Shown here piece after piece: positions 2,577-31,231 of a stretch of DNA of 40,856 nt. Both the position numbers and the translations under genes were made by a program. Where the stretch lies: the NCBI GenBank assembly GCA_027623205.1, contig JAQBYC010000034.1, positions 1 to 40,856 of the forward strand, read 5' to 3'. Each line of letters opens with the position of its first letter. Position 1 is the stretch's first letter. The DNA is from Pseudomonadota bacterium. Its GTDB lineage: Bacteria; Pseudomonadota; Alphaproteobacteria; GCA-2731375. The notes beneath the pieces are model-generated. The model saw nothing but the letters and a program-made list of their open reading frames with translations. It was not told the origin of the DNA and did not search any database.

Positions 2577-4285
<1,709 letters not shown>

Positions 4286-4379
4286 AACGCGGCGACATCC
4301 GGCGGTGGTGTTATTCTTACGGTAGTTCTGGTGACGGCACAGGTCGCCTTTGTCCTTGCCGCGAACAGCGCACACGCCG

Positions 4380-4958: not shown

Positions 4959-5073
4959 CTTCGCTCCCCACTGATTCCCCAAGCAGGACTATATACCAAG
5001 CCGCGCCCGTTATAGTATTGCTTTGCCCTGGCTTTCGCGGGGAAAATACGGCTAACCAAGGGGAGGCAACCGC

Positions 5074-6543
5074 ATGTCCTATTTCGATCTGTTGATCCGC
5101 AACGGCACCGTGGCCACGGCGGCGGACACCTTTCAGGCGGACGTGGCCGTAAAGGATGGCCGCGTGGTGGCCCTGGGGGAAAATCTGGGCACCGCCGATC
5201 ACGAGATCGATGCCTCGGGCAAGCTGGTGCTGCCCGGCGGGGTCGAGGGCCATTGCCATATTGAACAGATCTCCTCGTCCGGGATCATGACGGCGGATGA
5301 TTTTTATTCCGGCACGGTGTCCGCGGTGTTCGGCGGCACCACCACGGTGATCCCGTTCGCGGCCCAGCAAAAGGGCGCGTCGCTGCGCCAGACGGTGGAG
5401 GATTATCACGCCTGCGCCGGCCCCAAGGCGGTGATCGATTACGGTTTTCACCTGATTATTTCAGACCCCTCGGATCAGGTCATCGGCCAGGAGCTGCCGG
5501 CCCTGATCAGGGACGGCTTCACCTCGTTCAAGGTCTATATGACCTATGACGATCTGCGCCTGGATGACTACCAGATGCTGGAGGTGCTTTCCGCCGCGCG
5601 GCGTAACGGCGCCATGGTCATGGTGCATGCGGAAAACCATGACATGATCCGCTGGCTCAGCCAGAAGCTGTTGGATGCGAACCATTGGCAGCCCCAGTAT
5701 CACGCGGTCAGCCATTCCCGCGCCGGCGAGGGCGAGGCGGCGCACCGGGCCATCGCCCTGTCCCGGCTGATGGATCAGCCGATCCTGGTGGTGCATGTAT
5801 CCTCGGAAGAGGCGATGGACGAGATCCGTCTGGCCCAGAACAAGGGTCTGAAAATATTCGCCGAGACCTGTCCGCAATATCTGTTTCTGACGGCGGAGGA
5901 TCTGCACCGCGACGGCATGGATGGAGCCATGTTCTGCTGCAGTCCCCCGCCCCGCGGCGCCGCCGATCAGGCGGCCATGTGGCGCGGCCTGGCCAACGGC
6001 ACCTTCTCGATATTCTCGTCCGATCACGCGCCCTACCGGTTTGACGACAGCGGCAAGTTAAAGGCGGGGCCGGAGCCCACGTTTAAACAGATCGCCAACG
6101 GCGTGCCGGGGATCGAGCTGCGCCTGCCCCTGCTGTTTTCCGAAGGCGTGGGCAAGGGCCGCATCGACCTCAACCGATTTGTCGCCCTGACCGCCACGAA
6201 CGTGGCCAAGCTTTATGGCCTGTCGCCCCGCAAAGGCACCATCGCGGTGGGCTCGGACGCCGACATCGCGATCTGGGACCCGGATCTGGAACAGACCATC
6301 GATCATGCCATGCTGCATGACGACGTGGGCTACACCCCCTATGCCGGAATAAAAATCAAGGGCTGGCCCACGACGGTCCTCAGCCGGGGCCGGGTGGTGG
6401 TGGCCGACGGCGCCCTGCATGGGTCACGGGGCGACGGCCAGTTCCTCGCCCGGGCCGTTTCCGAGGCGGCGGCGCCCTTGGGCCGCCTGGAGCCGGAGAT
6501 GGACCCCGCGCGCAATTTCGGCGCGGATCTGCTGGGCCGATGA
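5074..6543 (+). CDS. Dihydropyrimidinase/hydantoinase-type cyclic amidohydrolase
   Basis: 489 residues, normal length for the family. It hydrolyses cyclic imides or amides such as dihydropyrimidines or hydantoins with a binuclear metal centre in the cytosol. Metal ligands are visible in order: His60 and His62 (GHCHIEQ), the carbamylated Lys153 (SFKVYMTY), His185 (MVHAEN), His241 (VVHVSS) and Asp317 (SSDHAPY). DDFYSGT and the PQYLFLT segment are typical of dihydropyrimidinases rather than allantoinases. AGGGGAGG precedes the ATG. An alpha/beta hydrolase follows on the same strand, but no pyrimidine-catabolism partner (dehydrogenase, beta-ureidopropionase) is present, so the physiological substrate is open. 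Confidence 0.88.
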   Translation: MSYFDLLIRNGTVATAADTFQADVAVKDGRVVALGENLGTADHEIDASGKLVLPGGVEGHCHIEQISSSGIMTADDFYSGTVSAVFGGTTTVIPFAAQQKGASLRQTVEDYHACAGPKAVIDYGFHLIISDPSDQVIGQELPALIRDGFTSFKVYMTYDDLRLDDYQMLEVLSAARRNGAMVMVHAENHDMIRWLSQKLLDANHWQPQYHAVSHSRAGEGEAAHRAIALSRLMDQPILVVHVSSEEAMDEIRLAQNKGLKIFAETCPQYLFLTAEDLHRDGMDGAMFCCSPPPRGAADQAAMWRGLANGTFSIFSSDHAPYRFDDSGKLKAGPEPTFKQIANGVPGIELRLPLLFSEGVGKGRIDLNRFVALTATNVAKLYGLSPRKGTIAVGSDADIAIWDPDLEQTIDHAMLHDDVGYTPYAGIKIKGWPTTVLSRGRVVVADGALHGSRGDGQFLARAVSEAAAPLGRLEPEMDPARNFGADLLGR

Positions 6544-24173: not shown

Positions 24174-26156
24174 CTATTGCCCCATGCAGGCATCGTAGCG
24201 GGCCGCGGCAAGATCAACGCACAACGCCACATCCTGGGCCAGCAGATATCGCTGCCCGACCAGATCCGCCGCCACCGCGCGCACCCGTTCCAGATAGACT
24301 GCGCGGCTAGGGTAACGTTCCGGCAACGAGGGGCGCGGGTCGCCGGCCGCCTCGCGGCTGGCCTTGTCCCTGGCAAAGGGAATGGTGGAACCGACGTATT
24401 CCAGCAACTGCCCCGCCCCGCCGGTATCGGGGTGACGGGGGTTGAAGCCCGTATGGGTGGCAACCGGCACGGCCACGTCGGGCATGGCAAGACCGGCGGC
24501 CTCGTTGCCATTCTCGTCCACCTTGGAGACCCAATCGGGATAGGCGACCGGCCCAATCTTTGCCGGCATGGCGCCGATCCCGCGTTCGGCGTCAGGACCA
24601 AGATCCAGAGGATAAACCCAGGTCATGACCGCAGCATCGGGCAAGGCCAGGCCGGGTATGGTCGATAGCCTGTCCATGACCTCGCTACGCGTGCCGCGGT
24701 TATTGTTGGCGGCGGTGGGAAAGGCGCTCTCGGGCGGCGCGGTATCTTCCTTGACCCAGGCCAGCAGGTTCATCAGGGCGGCCCGGTACAGCGGGCGATA
24801 GTCAATGATGTTGAGGTAATTTTGACCATGACTGCCGAACATGGTGCGTTTCACCAGGACGGCGGCGCCAGGACCATGCTGGGTCGAGGCGAACAGATAA
24901 CGCCGCACGCCAGAGGGCAATTCGGCATCGCCGCCGGTTTCCAGGTTGCCGTGGCTCAGACCCGCGTCACCGCGCCAGTATTCCGACGAGGTATCCGTAT
25001 AAATAATCTTGGGCATGGCGCCCGCCGCCGTCTGCCGCAGCAACAGACCATCGGTGGTTCCGGTCAAAGGATCGATCTGGCGACCGTCGGCGAAGGGAAA
25101 CAGGTGGCCGAACGAAGGTGTTGGCTGCACCGAGGGTTGGGCATAGCGGTGATTGAATTCCCCGCGCCGGCCCCCGGCGATATGGGCCAACACGCCGTCC
25201 AGGGCGGGGCGGCCCGCTTCGTCCCGGTTCAGGCCCAAATAAAGATAGGTGCGCAGAAAGCGGCCGCATTGGGACTGCCCCTCGCCAATCACATGGTCGA
25301 TGGCGCCGGCAGTGGGCGCAGCCGCATCATAGCGCAGATACGACGCCAGTTCCCTGGTCGCGAGCAGGCCCGCACCCACGACGGGGCAGTCCATGGGGGT
25401 GTAGAGCAGATCGTAAATCCGCCCTGCTTCGAAGCCGCCGTCCAGCCAGACATGCCCGTCATCGCCCACCACACTGCCGTCATTAACCCGGGCAAAACGC
25501 CATTGCGTCCGTGGCATGAGTTCCGGTTCGCCATAGGGGCCATGGCGCACCCATAATTTGGCGCCAGGCTCGTCAATGTCGCCCACCCGCACCAGGCTAT
25601 GGCGGCCCAGGTCACCTACATGCTGATCCGTCAGGGGCAGACAATCGCGGGCTTGGTCCGGTTGAATACGAAGCTGCATCTGTCCGGGCGGCCTCCGCGC
25701 GGCGACCGGTACACCGGGCGGCACCAGGCCAATGCGCGGGCGCTCCGCCGTGCGCGGCACATCCCATTGCCAACCGGCCCAGGCAATGGTCCAGCCCTGC
25801 GCGAACAGGAAGCCGTCGCCGGGGGCGATTTCCGCGGTATCCTCGGTGCCCATGGGGGATTGGTTAAAGCGAGCCAGCACGCGTTTGCCCCGGTTTGGCA
25901 CCTGCATCAATAATGCGCGGTTGCCGGCGCCCGTCTGCACAGGCTGCAACAGCGTCACATCGCCCTGAAAGTGCACCAGGCCATCCGCCTCACGCGCCGC
26001 CAGGGACAAATCCACCACGCTCTGGTTGGCCGCATGCAGGGGGTCAACCACATAATGGGCAACCGCCTCGATGCGCTCATAAGGTCCGACATCGCCAAAG
26101 CCGCGGCCGTTTTCGTATAGCCCCCGTTGCAGAATGTCCAGCTGGGTAAGGGCCAT
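24174..26156 (-). CDS. Alpha/beta hydrolase domain protein (Abhydrolase_10 type)
   Basis: 660 residues. The sequence fits the large Abhydrolase_10 family: N-terminal YENGRGFGDVGPYERIEAVAHY, a mid-region HVIGEGQSQCGRFLRTYLYLGLNRDE with the nucleophile elbow GQSQCG, and C-terminal VPVATHTGFNPRHPDTG. No convincing signal peptide. Family members are poorly characterised; some lie in catabolic clusters. The ATG starts one base after the stop of the upstream paralogue gene, so translation is coupled. Substrate unknown, but the context suggests hydrolysis of an ester or amide intermediate in the cluster's pathway. Confidence 0.85.
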   Translation of the reverse strand: MALTQLDILQRGLYENGRGFGDVGPYERIEAVAHYVVDPLHAANQSVVDLSLAAREADGLVHFQGDVTLLQPVQTGAGNRALLMQVPNRGKRVLARFNQSPMGTEDTAEIAPGDGFLFAQGWTIAWAGWQWDVPRTAERPRIGLVPPGVPVAARRPPGQMQLRIQPDQARDCLPLTDQHVGDLGRHSLVRVGDIDEPGAKLWVRHGPYGEPELMPRTQWRFARVNDGSVVGDDGHVWLDGGFEAGRIYDLLYTPMDCPVVGAGLLATRELASYLRYDAAAPTAGAIDHVIGEGQSQCGRFLRTYLYLGLNRDEAGRPALDGVLAHIAGGRRGEFNHRYAQPSVQPTPSFGHLFPFADGRQIDPLTGTTDGLLLRQTAAGAMPKIIYTDTSSEYWRGDAGLSHGNLETGGDAELPSGVRRYLFASTQHGPGAAVLVKRTMFGSHGQNYLNIIDYRPLYRAALMNLLAWVKEDTAPPESAFPTAANNNRGTRSEVMDRLSTIPGLALPDAAVMTWVYPLDLGPDAERGIGAMPAKIGPVAYPDWVSKVDENGNEAAGLAMPDVAVPVATHTGFNPRHPDTGGAGQLLEYVGSTIPFARDKASREAAGDPRPSLPERYPSRAVYLERVRAVAADLVGQRYLLAQDVALCVDLAAARYDACMGQ

Positions 26157-26157
26157 G

Positions 26158-27198
26158 TCAACGAACGCCCCTGATCGCGTTTGTTTTTATATCCCAAAGG
26201 CGTCGGGTTACCGAACGGCTGCCCCCGGCCCACAGGGGCAGGTGGGTCATCTTCACCCCCGCCCCGCCGGTGATGATGGGGTGAATATCCCCTGCGCCGG
26301 CGGCGATGGGACGCATTGCGGTAATGCTGGCGATTTCAGGCAGGGTAACCGTGCCCGCGGTAAGCAGATAATCCTGCACACGGGCCAGATCCCAGCCATG
26401 CTTGACGACCAGTCGGGCCAGTTCGGGAGGGAACAGGAAGAACTGCTCACCAAGGTCCCGCCGCCGCCCGGCGCTGGCAACCGCCCCCGCGGCGGTCATG
26501 GCGGCGGCCATGGGCGCCAATATGGCCTCCGGCGTATCGCCGCCGCCGCTCGGCAAAACCTCCGCCGTGCCGGAAACGCCAAGCACCGTTACCGCGCTCG
26601 TCGCCCCATCAAGCCCACGCCGCGCCGTCAGGGACGGGAAGATCGCTTCATCGCCCTCGGGAAAGCAAAAGGTATACTTGCCCGGCTGGCCCATGGTTGC
26701 CATATCGCCTATGCCGGCCCGCGCACCGCCGATATTGCGCATCACCAGAGCGATGGCCCGGCCCAAAGACGCATTGGCGCGGTTGCCGGGGCCAAGGCAG
26801 TTGGTTCCGGCGTTCATGCCCAGGGTACGGACAATGGGACCATGCACGATTGTCACCACGGCCGGGGTGCCCGTAGTGGTCAGTATACCCAGCAGGTTAA
26901 ACCGCGGCTCCAGACAGGCCGCGGCGGCGGTCAGCACAATTGGCAACGCCGCCCGCTGGCAGCCGGCCAAAACGCAATTGTAAGCCACGGCGGCGGCCGT
27001 CAGGTCGCCGAACAGCGGCAGCACCTGACCATGGGATTTATTCGGCGCGGCAACGCCGGCCAGCATGGCCTGCAATCTCTGCATGGTCGGCGGCACCAAA
27101 GGCAGACCATCGCCCAACTCAGCCTCTTCCAGGACGGCCTGGGCCTCTTCCCAGGGCACTGTTTCCTCGAAGATCGGCAGATCGGCCCACAATTCCAT
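26158..27198 (-). CDS. Conserved protein of unknown function, paralogue B of the selenoprotein cluster
   Basis: 346 residues, same length as its neighbour at 27216-28256, and clearly homologous to it. Shared blocks: DGLPLVPPT (30-38), LAGC (Cys80), GPIVRTLGMN, NCLGPGNRANASLGRA (Cys134), NIGGA and GQPGKYTFCFPE (Cys178). Three cysteines are kept in both copies. I recall this family beside UGSC selenoproteins, without a known function. The ATG at 27198 gives MELWADLPIFEETV; a longer frame to 27525 is only a shadow through the upstream gene. It begins 17 bases after the paralogue A stop and ends one base before the hydrolase gene. Two equal-length paralogues in a row suggest a heteromeric complex. 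Confidence 0.8.
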   Translation of the reverse strand: MELWADLPIFEETVPWEEAQAVLEEAELGDGLPLVPPTMQRLQAMLAGVAAPNKSHGQVLPLFGDLTAAAVAYNCVLAGCQRAALPIVLTAAAACLEPRFNLLGILTTTGTPAVVTIVHGPIVRTLGMNAGTNCLGPGNRANASLGRAIALVMRNIGGARAGIGDMATMGQPGKYTFCFPEGDEAIFPSLTARRGLDGATSAVTVLGVSGTAEVLPSGGGDTPEAILAPMAAAMTAAGAVASAGRRRDLGEQFFLFPPELARLVVKHGWDLARVQDYLLTAGTVTLPEIASITAMRPIAAGAGDIHPIITGGAGVKMTHLPLWAGGSRSVTRRLWDIKTNAIRGVR

Positions 27199-27215: not shown

Positions 27216-28256
27216 TCAGACGTGCGACAGCCGCACGGAGCAGGCGGAGGTAAACCCGAAGGGGGGAATATAGGCGGAATGCTTGCCGGGCCCGCCGGCC
27301 ACCAGCATGAGGATATCCTCGGGGCTGGGCGTCATGTGGTAATGGTCTTTGGCCATGGGCCGGTCCATGCTCGCGTAGCTTTCCTGATTTTCCGCGGAAA
27401 CGCGGGAGATATGCACGGCTGAACGATCGTATAGATCCTGCTGCATATCTGGAATGGTCCAACCGTCCCGGTGCAGGGTCCGGGCGTGTTCCGGGCCCAG
27501 CACGATGAAAATGGGCGCGTTGCAATAGATCGTATTGGCGCCAACCTGGGAAATCGTGCCCGCGATGGTGGTCAGAATACCGATACCCGTATTCGAACCA
27601 TGATCATTGATATTGTGCGGCGCCTCGCCCGGCATGGCGGTGACCACGCTGTCTTCCGCCGCGAAGCGCCGGCGCACATGGAAAGGCTCCCACGGACTTT
27701 CCTCCTCGTTCTCACCGAAACAAAAAGCATATTTCGCCGGCGATCCCTGGGTGGAGCGATCCATCACCCCTGGTTTGGCGCCGCCCACGTTCAGCAGGAT
27801 CAATTGCAGCGCCCGGCCAATCGTGGCGTTGGCCTGCCGGCCCTGGCCAAAACAGTTGGAGGAACAGTTGATATCCAAGGTCTTGCGGATCGGTCCGTTG
27901 AACAACAGCATGGGCGCACAGGAATGCGTCGTCGCCAGACTGCCGTGCAGATTGTATTCCGGCGTCAGCACCGCCCGCACCGCCGCCAGGACGGCGGGGA
28001 AATATTCCGGCCGGCAACCAGCCATGACCGCATTGGCGGCCATGGCCTGCAGGGTCGGGATCACCCGGCGCGGTGACATGGCCGGGATCGGCTCGTTATC
28101 CCCGTGACAGGTCGCAACAAAGCGCTCCACCACCGCCTCCGTCGGCATCACCAGGGGGAAGCCGTCGCTCCAGCCCTGGGCGCGGGCATATTCATCCCAT
28201 TCGGCCTGGTCCAGGTCACCAATATCCAGCAGTTCAGTATCCGGTGCCGCTTCCAT
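27216..28256 (-). CDS. Conserved protein of unknown function, paralogue A of the selenoprotein cluster
   Basis: 346 residues, paralogue of the following gene. Blocks in order: DGFPLVMPT (31-39), NAVMAGCRPEYFPAVLAA (Cys81), YNLHGSLATTHSCAP, GPIRKTLDIN, NCFGQGRQANATIGRA (Cys135), NVGGAKPG and GSPAKYAFCFGENEEESPWEP (Cys179). It also has a Cys131 and Cys113 not kept in paralogue B. No signal peptide or membrane helix. It starts 87 bases after the true stop of the selenoprotein gene. The conserved cysteines and the selenoprotein neighbour make a redox or thiol-transfer role possible, which is inference. Confidence 0.8.
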   Translation of the reverse strand: MEAAPDTELLDIGDLDQAEWDEYARAQGWSDGFPLVMPTEAVVERFVATCHGDNEPIPAMSPRRVIPTLQAMAANAVMAGCRPEYFPAVLAAVRAVLTPEYNLHGSLATTHSCAPMLLFNGPIRKTLDINCSSNCFGQGRQANATIGRALQLILLNVGGAKPGVMDRSTQGSPAKYAFCFGENEEESPWEPFHVRRRFAAEDSVVTAMPGEAPHNINDHGSNTGIGILTTIAGTISQVGANTIYCNAPIFIVLGPEHARTLHRDGWTIPDMQQDLYDRSAVHISRVSAENQESYASMDRPMAKDHYHMTPSPEDILMLVAGGPGKHSAYIPPFGFTSACSVRLSHV

Positions 28257-28343
28257 GTTCTTGCTCTTCGCTCTCTTTTGCCGCCCACACTCAACCCGGG
28301 CTGAACCAGCCCGGCCTGCCCGCGCCACCACGCACGCCGTCCG

Positions 28344-28862
28344 TTAAACTGCGATCGCCGCCTGCAAGCCACTGGCCGCTGTTTCTATCCGTTCCACCAG
28401 TTCCTCGGCATTCAGACCGCCAATGGGGTGTTTGATAACGATCACCTGGGCCTTGACCTTGCGCGCCTTGGCCTGGGCCTGCACCAGGGGCAGGAAGGTA
28501 TCGGTGGTCAGGATGAAGTTGGTAACGCCGCGTTTTTCAAGCTCGATGCTGTCATGGAAACTCCACGACGAACATGCGCCTCAATCCGCTATAGCGAGTA
28601 ACGCCGCCCGGTATTTCGTGGCCAACGCGTCATACATCCCATCCGGCGCCCCTTGGGCCGCGGTGTCCTTGGCGATGTAGTCGATGTTGTCCGTGGCGCG
28701 ATAGGCGCCCATCTTGTCGCGGACACCTTCCAACAGCTCTTTCGCATTGGGTTTGGAATTGGAAAACAGGATGATCGGATCATGTTTCCAATCGACCGCG
28801 TTGGCCCCGACCCGTTCGGTACTGGGCGCCTCATGGCCAAAGGCTGGATTGACAATTCGCAT
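28344..28862 (-). CDS. UGSC-family selenoprotein with in-frame UGA (Sec94)
   Basis: Read with UGA at 28583-28581 as selenocysteine, this gene gives 172 residues. Before the UGA: MRIVNPAFGHEAPSTERVGA, then DPIILFSNSKPNAKELLEGV and a helix ending ALLAIAD. After it: U-GACSSWSFHDSIELEKRG, VTNFILTTDTFLPLVQAQA, then VIVIKHPIGGLNAEELVERI and a TAA at 28346-28344. The motif U-G-A-C with a following helix fits the UGSC (seleno)protein family, where Sec or Cys stands at that spot. The frame stays open and protein-like for 79 codons past the UGA, and a SECIS hairpin follows at the right distance. GGGAGAG precedes the ATG. An ordinary gene call would stop at the UGA and lose the C-terminal half. Function of the family is not established to my knowledge. 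Confidence 0.85.
28551..28569 (-). promoter_or_regulatory. Bacterial SECIS element
   Basis: The minus strand reads GTCGTGG-AGTTT-CCATGAC: a 7-bp stem (one G-U pair) with a five-base apical loop. The loop begins 18 bases after the UGA, and a G is the second loop base. This fits the usual bacterial SECIS pattern (short upper stem, small loop with G among its first two bases, loop 16-37 bases from the UGA), which SelB reads to insert selenocysteine. Confidence 0.75.
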
Positions 28863-28939
28863 GCTGGCTCTCCCTTCATGCAGTTGGATCATGCAGCGGT
28901 AAGCTTAAGCCACTGAAGCGGGCGGTGGCAAGGTGGCCT

Positions 28940-31231
28940 CTAATCTGCACCGGGCGGCGGGGAAAACGGCGTGGGCTCCAGGAACCGGCGCAAGACGTTG
29001 CCGGTAATCTGGGCGACATTGTTGGCGTAACCCTCATGGGCCAGGCTGCTGATCCAGGCGATGGAACCGGTGGCGAAAACCGCGCCGCCCCGGGGGCATT
29101 CGAAAAACACCATATCGGCCCGCACATTGGGGTCGTCGAATTGCGGCATGGTGGAGAGGAAATCTTCCTTGGTGCGCAACATATCGCCGCCGAAGTCATT
29201 GGCCCGGGCCAGCACCAAGGCATGGATGGGGGTGCCGTCGCGGGTATCCCAACGGTCGATCTCTTCGCCGGCCGCCCCGCCGCCAATGCTGCCGAAATCA
29301 CCGATCGGGCCGGTCCCCACCCCGGCAAAGGCAAAGGCCGCGCGTGGATCGTCAGCGCCGCTCTGGCGTTCATAGTGGCCGCTCTTCTCGAACCCCTGGG
29401 CGGCAAAGCCGATGCCGACCAGCTGGTTCGGCGGGCGGCCGTTGCGGCGCCACAAACCGCCGTATTCGCCGTCAAAGGACTGGTAATATTCCCCCACCGG
29501 CGACATCCAGGCACGGGTCCCATCCTCGGCCCGGCGCACCTCGATTACGCCCGGCTTGTCGTCGCGAAAGGCGATGCGCCAGTAAAAGCCATTGCCGCCC
29601 AGATACATCAGACGGCCGCCCTGGTCTAAAAACGCGGCGATCCCATCCAACATGGCGGTGGAGTGGTATTCCGGATGGCTGCCAGTCAGGATGCAGCGGT
29701 AGGGCTGCAACAGTGCAGCGCCCTCCCGGTGCAGTTCCTCGTCGGTAATGACATCGAAAGTCTGGCCGATCCGGGTCAGCCAGGCCACAATGTTCAGGTC
29801 GGCGGGCAGGCCCCAGGGCCGGTTGTCGCCCGGCTTCATATTCATCACCGGACGCAGGCGCGAGGAATAATGAATGCCGCTGCGGTCGTCGTGCAAATCA
29901 TAGAGAGAGCCGCCAACTTCCGGATGGCCGGCCAGAAAGCCGTCATTGACCCATTCCGGATGGCCATCGCCAAAAATCAGATTGGGTTTCAGACGCTGCC
30001 GTGTATTGGCATAGGCCATGTATGAGGCCGTGGGCACCAGCAATGCCACATCCGTCCTGGCCCGGCTGCCTGCAGGAACCCGTGGCGGCAACACGAAAAA
30101 TGGCATCCGATCCACATCGCTGCCATGACGCAGGCGGGCGGCGTATACCCCGCTGGGCAGATCGTCGGGCACGGTATAGCTGAAATCGGTCTGCCAGGCG
30201 GCATCGTACAAATCATCCTGATGAAAATGGATGGCGCCATATTGCTCCCGGGCATGGCGCCAGCTGTGTTCACCGCCGTCCCAGTTATGGCCGGTGACCC
30301 CGCGGGTGGGCAGATTGACAACCCGGCCGTGCCGGCCATGGCGGGTTAAATCGCGGATCCGGTCGCTGGAAATATCGGCGGCGAAATCCCAACAACCACG
30401 CACACAATCGATTAGACCGCCGGGCAACGCCGGGCCGGATAACGCCGCCATTTCGGCATCGTTTAGCGCCCGGTCGGCGAGCCGGGGCCGGTCGATCTTG
30501 CCGTTGAAATGCCTGGTAAATTCAGCCGCTTCCGAGCTGCCGCCCCCGGCTGCGAACAGAAACAGCGCCGCCGCCGCACCCGGCATCAGATCTTTCGCCA
30601 GAACGTCCGTGCGCTCCGTGGCCGGCGAGACCAGGCTGTCTCCCGGCCCGCTGGGCACGGGCCGTTGCACCAACCGCGCCCGGCCGCTGGCCCCATCATA
30701 GCTGGCCGCGACAAATGCCCACTGCCCCCGGCGCATGGGTACGCCGGTACTTAGGAACCCCCGGCGCCCAGCGCCGTCCTCGTCTTCGCCAATGGCCAGT
30801 GCCAGGGCGCCGTCATCATCCAGCAACAGGGCAAAACCGGCCCCGCCGGCACCAATTTCATCAGCCCGCCAGCGCCCCATAACCACCTGTTGTTGCCGCC
30901 CCGGCAAGGTGGGCTGGATCATCGCCTGCAAAGTAAAACTGTGCAGCCCGGCCAAATCCTTCCCCTCGTCGACGATGCCGTGGGAGCCCGTGTGGATGGC
31001 CTGATAGCGGCCGGGGTGGGGCCCAGCAAAGGGCGCCGCCAGCACCTCTTCGATCACGCCGATGCCACCCGGCGTATTGTCGCCACCGGTCACATGGACC
31101 AGATCGGCCTCATAAATTCGAGGGGAGGCGCCGCCTTCATAACAGCAGACCTTGAAATCCAGGGACTGCCCCGGACGGACGGAAATGGGTTCGCAATAGC
31201 CGGTAATGGTCTTGCGGCGCAGTTCAGGCAT
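28940..31231 (-). CDS. N,N-dimethylformamidase large-subunit-like amidohydrolase
   Basis: 763 residues, equal to the large (beta) subunit of N,N-dimethylformamidase, whose sequence it follows throughout. A LamG-like beta sandwich spans about 95-270; the catalytic part carries ASYMAYANT (Tyr404), LYDLHDDRSG (Tyr444) and TGSHPEY (Glu521), matching the two tyrosines and one glutamate that bind the mononuclear iron in the known enzyme. Other matches: NWDGGEHSWRHAREQYGAIHFH and ELPADL-like GLPADLNIVAWL. The known enzyme splits DMF to dimethylamine and formate and needs a small subunit; none is encoded here, so the substrate is probably another amide. First gene of the selenoprotein cluster; 77 bases before that gene. 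Confidence 0.85.
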   Translation of the reverse strand: MPELRRKTITGYCEPISVRPGQSLDFKVCCYEGGASPRIYEADLVHVTGGDNTPGGIGVIEEVLAAPFAGPHPGRYQAIHTGSHGIVDEGKDLAGLHSFTLQAMIQPTLPGRQQQVVMGRWRADEIGAGGAGFALLLDDDGALALAIGEDEDGAGRRGFLSTGVPMRRGQWAFVAASYDGASGRARLVQRPVPSGPGDSLVSPATERTDVLAKDLMPGAAAALFLFAAGGGSSEAAEFTRHFNGKIDRPRLADRALNDAEMAALSGPALPGGLIDCVRGCWDFAADISSDRIRDLTRHGRHGRVVNLPTRGVTGHNWDGGEHSWRHAREQYGAIHFHQDDLYDAAWQTDFSYTVPDDLPSGVYAARLRHGSDVDRMPFFVLPPRVPAGSRARTDVALLVPTASYMAYANTRQRLKPNLIFGDGHPEWVNDGFLAGHPEVGGSLYDLHDDRSGIHYSSRLRPVMNMKPGDNRPWGLPADLNIVAWLTRIGQTFDVITDEELHREGAALLQPYRCILTGSHPEYHSTAMLDGIAAFLDQGGRLMYLGGNGFYWRIAFRDDKPGVIEVRRAEDGTRAWMSPVGEYYQSFDGEYGGLWRRNGRPPNQLVGIGFAAQGFEKSGHYERQSGADDPRAAFAFAGVGTGPIGDFGSIGGGAAGEEIDRWDTRDGTPIHALVLARANDFGGDMLRTKEDFLSTMPQFDDPNVRADMVFFECPRGGAVFATGSIAWISSLAHEGYANNVAQITGNVLRRFLEPTPFSPPPGAD

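Follow-up and report, generated by a model that had tools for sequence, protein, structure and literature searches.

A UGSC-family selenoprotein gene with an in-frame TGA and a dedicated partner gene: a probable selenium-dependent enzyme

The UGSC selenoproteins are known from 2008 at the latest, when 255 selenocysteine (Sec) and 21 cysteine forms of UGSC-containing (seleno)proteins were reported from GOS, among the most abundant marine selenoprotein families (PMC2398784). The same paper places UGSC with likely thioredoxin-fold proteins and describes a fusion of UGSC with a domain called "Unknown_1". UAG-decoded UGSC selenoproteins were later published for Geodermatophilaceae (PMC5330540). The gene described here is a further member of the family, with the motif UGAC. 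It shares the family, the active column and the hairpin with the genes from Geodermatophilaceae, but the codon differs: theirs is TAG with a tRNA-Sec(CUA), while ours is TGA with a tRNA-Sec(UCA).

The gene lies on the minus strand of the window (the whole stretch of 40,856 nucleotides that we analysed; Table 1). Its frame begins with ATG, runs for 93 codons to the TGA, and continues for 78 more codons to a TAA (28346-28344). Translated with TGA as U, it gives 172 amino acids with U at position 94, in the context ALLAIAD-U-G-A-C. Under translation table 11, only 93 residues are open (or 103 if the upstream ATG at 28892 is used), so the standard code reduces this gene to a fragment of 93-103 residues. 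The original prediction had said as much: that the frame runs on past the TGA as protein-like sequence, that a gene caller would report just the first 93 residues or take the gene for broken, and that the UGSC family has Sec or Cys at this place. The observation and its interpretation were borne out. When we looked for homologues with Cys or Sec aligned to the TGA, the column was Sec or Cys in 67 of 67 aligned relatives, and a natural Cys form was found (L054).

Pfam PF24696 (UGSC) recognises the read-through protein both before and after the TGA (108.7 bits, E = 4.5e-31), and the match passes the gathering cut-off of 25 bits along its whole length (residues 3-169 of 172 against model positions 2-169 of 172). 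Like other members (PF24696/NF041046), it has a UxxC motif with the Sec/Cys column, a SECIS element and a partner gene. Unlike them, it reads UGAC, it falls below the NCBIfam equivalog cut-off, and it is a separate gene that is followed by two partner paralogues. Its score against NF041046 is 106.4 bits and the curated cut-off is 125, so we do not claim it as an equivalog of that family; several other members with the UGSC motif also score below 125 bits. Membership of the family calls for Sec or Cys in the active column followed by G-x-C, and our protein has this sequence (U94-G-A-C). Across the 67 aligned sequences, the third place of the motif is S in 56, A (as here) in 6, G in 4 and T in 1.

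Table 1. Features of the UGSC locus, with window coordinates.
Feature	Position	Strand	Evidence or remark
UGSC-family selenoprotein gene, 172 aa, Sec at 94	28344..28862	-	translation with TGA=U; PF24696, 108.7 bits (cut-off 25)
In-frame TGA, predicted to be read as selenocysteine	28581..28583	-	TGA conserved in orthologues; Sec/Cys in 67/67 homologues; TAG with CUA tRNA-Sec in Blastococcus (L096)
Putative Shine-Dalgarno-like AAGGGAGAG, just 5' of the ATG at 28862	28868..28876	-	read from sequence
Bacterial SECIS hairpin GTCGTGG-AGTTT-CCATGAC	28551..28569	-	RNA fold; bSECIS rules (PMC13188914); synonymous constraint
Partner gene 1, 346 aa from ATG 28256 (open frame from GTG 28331)	27216..28256	-	other loci have the same family beside UGSC or fused to it
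Partner gene 2, paralogue of partner 1	26158..27198	-	32% identity over 315 aligned positions
LamG + N,N-dimethylformamidase beta-subunit-like domain protein, upstream	28940..31231	-	PF20254, PF13385
Abhydrolase_10 protein, downstream	24174..26156	-	PF20091

The AlphaFold2 model of the window protein (pLDDT 93.6) has five strands that alternate with helices, with Sec94 right before the helix at 95-110, and its fold is predicted to be Rossmann-like rather than a thioredoxin fold. The best rows of a comparison with PDB structures showed a generic Rossmann/flavodoxin-like arrangement. Beyond this generic fold, the search gave no clear PDB relative of this model or of a model of a fused UGSC-partner relative, and searching PDB sequences with UGSC or partner profiles gave nothing significant. 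These results bear on the reading in PMC2398784, which would make UGSC a thiol/selenol redox protein of the thioredoxin-like kind, acting as a reductase of disulfides or peroxides. The UxxC motif fits that reading, as does the grouping in that paper with likely thioredoxin-fold proteins, but the predicted alternation of strands and helices would speak against it. Also, 3 of the 67 sequences have Ser in place of the second Cys, whereas the Sec or Cys at 94 never varies, and a constant partner of 350 residues would be unusual for a thioredoxin-like protein. We consider a thioredoxin-like role unlikely, but it deserves to be taken seriously. Cys97 is present in the other 64 sequences. Copies that have Ser at this position but retain Sec occur in L149, L159 and L167, so the Sec may not depend on that Cys.

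Insertion at a Sec UGA codon usually has to compete with termination, so one might suppose that the 93-residue product ending at the TGA is functional by itself and that read-through is incidental. However, among the most conserved parts of UGSC are the Sec column and the helix that follows, F123 (which is invariant) and an HP motif (residues 145-146), and all of these are at or after the TGA. A functional short product seems very improbable to us.

Orthologues of the gene in two other genomes from the same genus (L058 and L059) have TGA at the same codon. After the TGA, most of their differences from our gene fall on the third position of the codon (9/4/35 and 12/2/22 for positions 1/2/3), so, judging from this pattern, the downstream part is under protein-level (purifying) selection. 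An in-frame stop within a draft assembly might have reflected a UGSC pseudogene with a nonsense mutation or a sequencing error, but more than 100 homologues, drawn from many phyla, share the TGA at this codon, the hairpin that follows is conserved as well as the protein sequence, and the conserved TGA and synteny in independent genomes refute this explanation, to which we give almost no weight. From the sequence comparisons, we conclude that this is an intact, genuine UGSC-family selenoprotein gene and not a broken one. Just as negligible is the idea that TGA is a sense codon (such as Trp) in this organism, which would also keep the frame open past a TGA: it is refuted by the TGA stops on ordinary genes (7 of 12 checked genes in the window), the homologues show Cys, not Trp, at this column, and a tRNA-Sec with UCA is present.

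With the partner protein as bait, we gathered 80 named loci. A UGSC-like gene is carried by 72 of these; 65 have TGA, 5 have Cys, one has TAG and one has neither. selB was over the cut-off in 8 of 9 sampled genomes with a Sec-form UGSC and was not found over the cut-off in the five genomes with a Cys form. The TAG is at the Sec codon of a UGSC gene from Blastococcus (L096:6750-6752, + strand) and has an intact hairpin after it, and the same genome encodes a tRNA-Sec with the matching CUA anticodon (L187); UAG decoding of this kind is already known from Geodermatophilaceae, the actinobacterial family in question. The codon thus follows the anticodon of tRNA-Sec, so the column is marked as Sec independently of the window. 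One UGSC homologue (L154, about 5011-5556, + strand) lacks both Sec and Cys in this column and reads GEGGNPTAKTARD; its genome has six other UGSC matches, with TGA.

It had been predicted that the organism reads UGA as selenocysteine, and a search of the genome for selA, selB, selC (tRNA-Sec) and selD had been proposed. All four of these genes, which are expected for a bacterial selenoprotein, were found in this genome (5.0 Mb and 97% complete, in 228 contigs). The tRNA-Sec has the anticodon UCA, selB (399.5 bits) directly adjoins selA (582 bits), and selD scores 390.8 bits. Together with the Sec/Cys column, this supports the prediction. The best selD match (L018) has one in-frame TGA itself and is likely a Sec-type SelD. 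The genome contains eight UGSC genes (ours and seven paralogues), each with exactly one in-frame TGA, and one of the paralogues is 1.2 kb from the tRNA-Sec gene. Eight copies in one genome suggest a family of substrate-specific versions. Across the class (Alphaproteobacteria), UGSC is present in 28 of 289 genomes, and 75 of the 76 matches have one TGA; the sole exception is the natural Cys form mentioned above. selB was over the cut-off in 27 of the 28 genomes with UGSC as compared to 14 of the 261 others (Fisher p = 1e-26), and the single UGSC genome without selB over the cut-off is just 77% complete.

The SECIS hairpin, like the seven paralogues and the partner genes, goes beyond the original prediction. 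It has a stem of 7 bp and the loop AGUUU, which is separated from the UGA by 18 nt and has its GU at nt 23-24 (counting from the T of the TGA). Its folding energy is -16.2 kcal/mol (z = -2.26), and nt 10-42 fold at -12.9 kcal/mol. The published rules for bacterial SECIS elements ask for a stem of 4-16 bp, a loop of 3-9 nt with G in its first two positions, a distance of 16-37 nt from the UGA and a minimum free energy of at most -7.5 (PMC13188914), and the hairpin agrees with all of them. Of 104 Sec genes, 99 have GT at nt 23-24, as against none of the 5 Cys genes, but these sequences are related and not independent, so p-values overstate the certainty. Residue 101 is mostly Ser, and its codon is AGT in 81 of 81 Ser cases and TGT in 17 of 17 Cys cases. 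UGSC hairpins are also more stable than synonymous recodings (median z = -2.2 for n = 103 related, non-independent sequences). Another strong GC-rich hairpin, CCGGGCTGGTTCAGCCCGG, lies between the UGSC gene and partner 1 (28258-28346, minus strand); its z is only -1.4 against shuffles.

In profile searches, partner genes 1 and 2 matched no Pfam or NCBIfam family. All 18 long loci that were picked by UGSC have a gene of the partner family beside UGSC or fused to it, as do 27 of 28 short loci, and in the named loci about 20 of the UGSC genes form one reading frame with the partner that includes the in-frame TGA. Within the window's genus, as well as in relatives that belong to several other families of the class, UGSC is followed by partner 1 and then by partner 2. 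We infer that "Unknown_1" of PMC2398784 is the same domain as this partner. Such a dedicated partner makes it probable that the two proteins form a single enzyme that depends on selenium. The fused relative was modelled with a pLDDT of 94.2 and a pTM of 0.94, and this predicts a defined packing of the UGSC domain against the partner domain; the partner part had no match among those listed, which does not indicate a new fold. As far as the genomic evidence goes, we put the probability of selenocysteine recoding and of the UGSC-partner partnership, taken together, at about 90%.

The closest functional parallel may be selenoprotein B of glycine/betaine/sarcosine reductase and PrdB of D-proline reductase (GrdB/PrdB; PF07355, TIGR01917 and TIGR04483). 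Both families have Sec in UxxC after a strand and a second subunit, and both have "LE..GIPT" and then a [HF]PLG-like stretch, in register. On the other hand, UGSC is shorter and is below every family cut-off. UGSC members hit TIGR01917 (glycine reductase selenoprotein B; E = 1.1e-5) and TIGR04483 (PrdB; E = 4.6e-5) over the Sec region, far below the family cut-offs, and the window protein (P0001) matched only PF24696 and NF041046 and was below the cut-off for PF07355. When we aligned UGSC with GRDB-like selenoproteins of the same class using hhalign, Sec fell on Sec, in register, with a score of 39.4 (probability 67%), or 39.6 with the motif masked; the maxima for the controls were 15.5 (reversed), 21.7 (column-shuffled) and 33.2 (block-shuffled). 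Masking UGxC in a plain HMM test took away most hits, leaving a score for only 3 of the 67 members. The window's own genome encodes one of the GRDB-like selenoproteins in the compared set (L085:1090-1947, minus strand; motif UPVC). A profile comparison gave no relation of the partner to the GRDB-like profile, and genes for CoA-type catabolism lie nearby. The pyruvoyl pro-protein subunit (PF09338) had no match over the cut-off in the window's genome (G000) or in the class, so this is not a glycine/proline reductase system. A remote kinship of UGSC with selenoprotein B is likely on these alignments, but not proven, and we do not assign UGSC to that family.

We propose the following mechanism. 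Given the gene's anatomy and the machinery in the genome, SelB carrying Sec-tRNA(UCA) would bind the hairpin just 3' of the UGA, and selenocysteine would be inserted at position 94. In the confident predicted model, the protein folds into a small Rossmann-like domain, in which the helix after the third strand opens with Sec94 and has Cys97 one turn on. UGSC would then act with the adjacent partner proteins as one enzyme, presumably a complex here and a single polypeptide in many bacteria. By analogy with selenoprotein B, the Sec selenolate might attack and reductively cleave a small organic substrate, and the partner might form the rest of the active site. This chemistry is a tentative suggestion. 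With similar reserve, we suggest that UGSC and its partner could be the two components of a widespread and so far undescribed selenoenzyme. It would be related to reductase selenoprotein B but shortened, would have exchanged the pyruvoyl subunit for a new partner, and would have spread (with up to 8 copies per genome) through bacteria without a pyruvoyl-type glycine/proline reductase. With a partner that is nearly always there, a predicted fold and a weak link to reductase selenoprotein B, the function of the family can be put as a testable hypothesis of a two-subunit enzyme.

The other gene neighbours do not indicate any single substrate across the loci. Past the partner, they vary and include CoA-transferase III, enoyl-CoA hydratase, AMP-binding ligase, TctC, MmgE/PrpD and molybdenum hydroxylase. 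Both genes that flank the window's cluster (LamG/dimethylformamidase-like and Abhydrolase_10) are linked to it only within the same genus, with synteny in L058 and L059. A cluster of neighbours at 40 loci was rejected, as its members are shadow ORFs antisense to the partner. Elsewhere in the window (2577-4304), a serine recombinase with Resolvase and Recombinase domains ends beside a tRNA gene (4231-4304, minus strand), an arrangement that resembles the edge of an integrated element.
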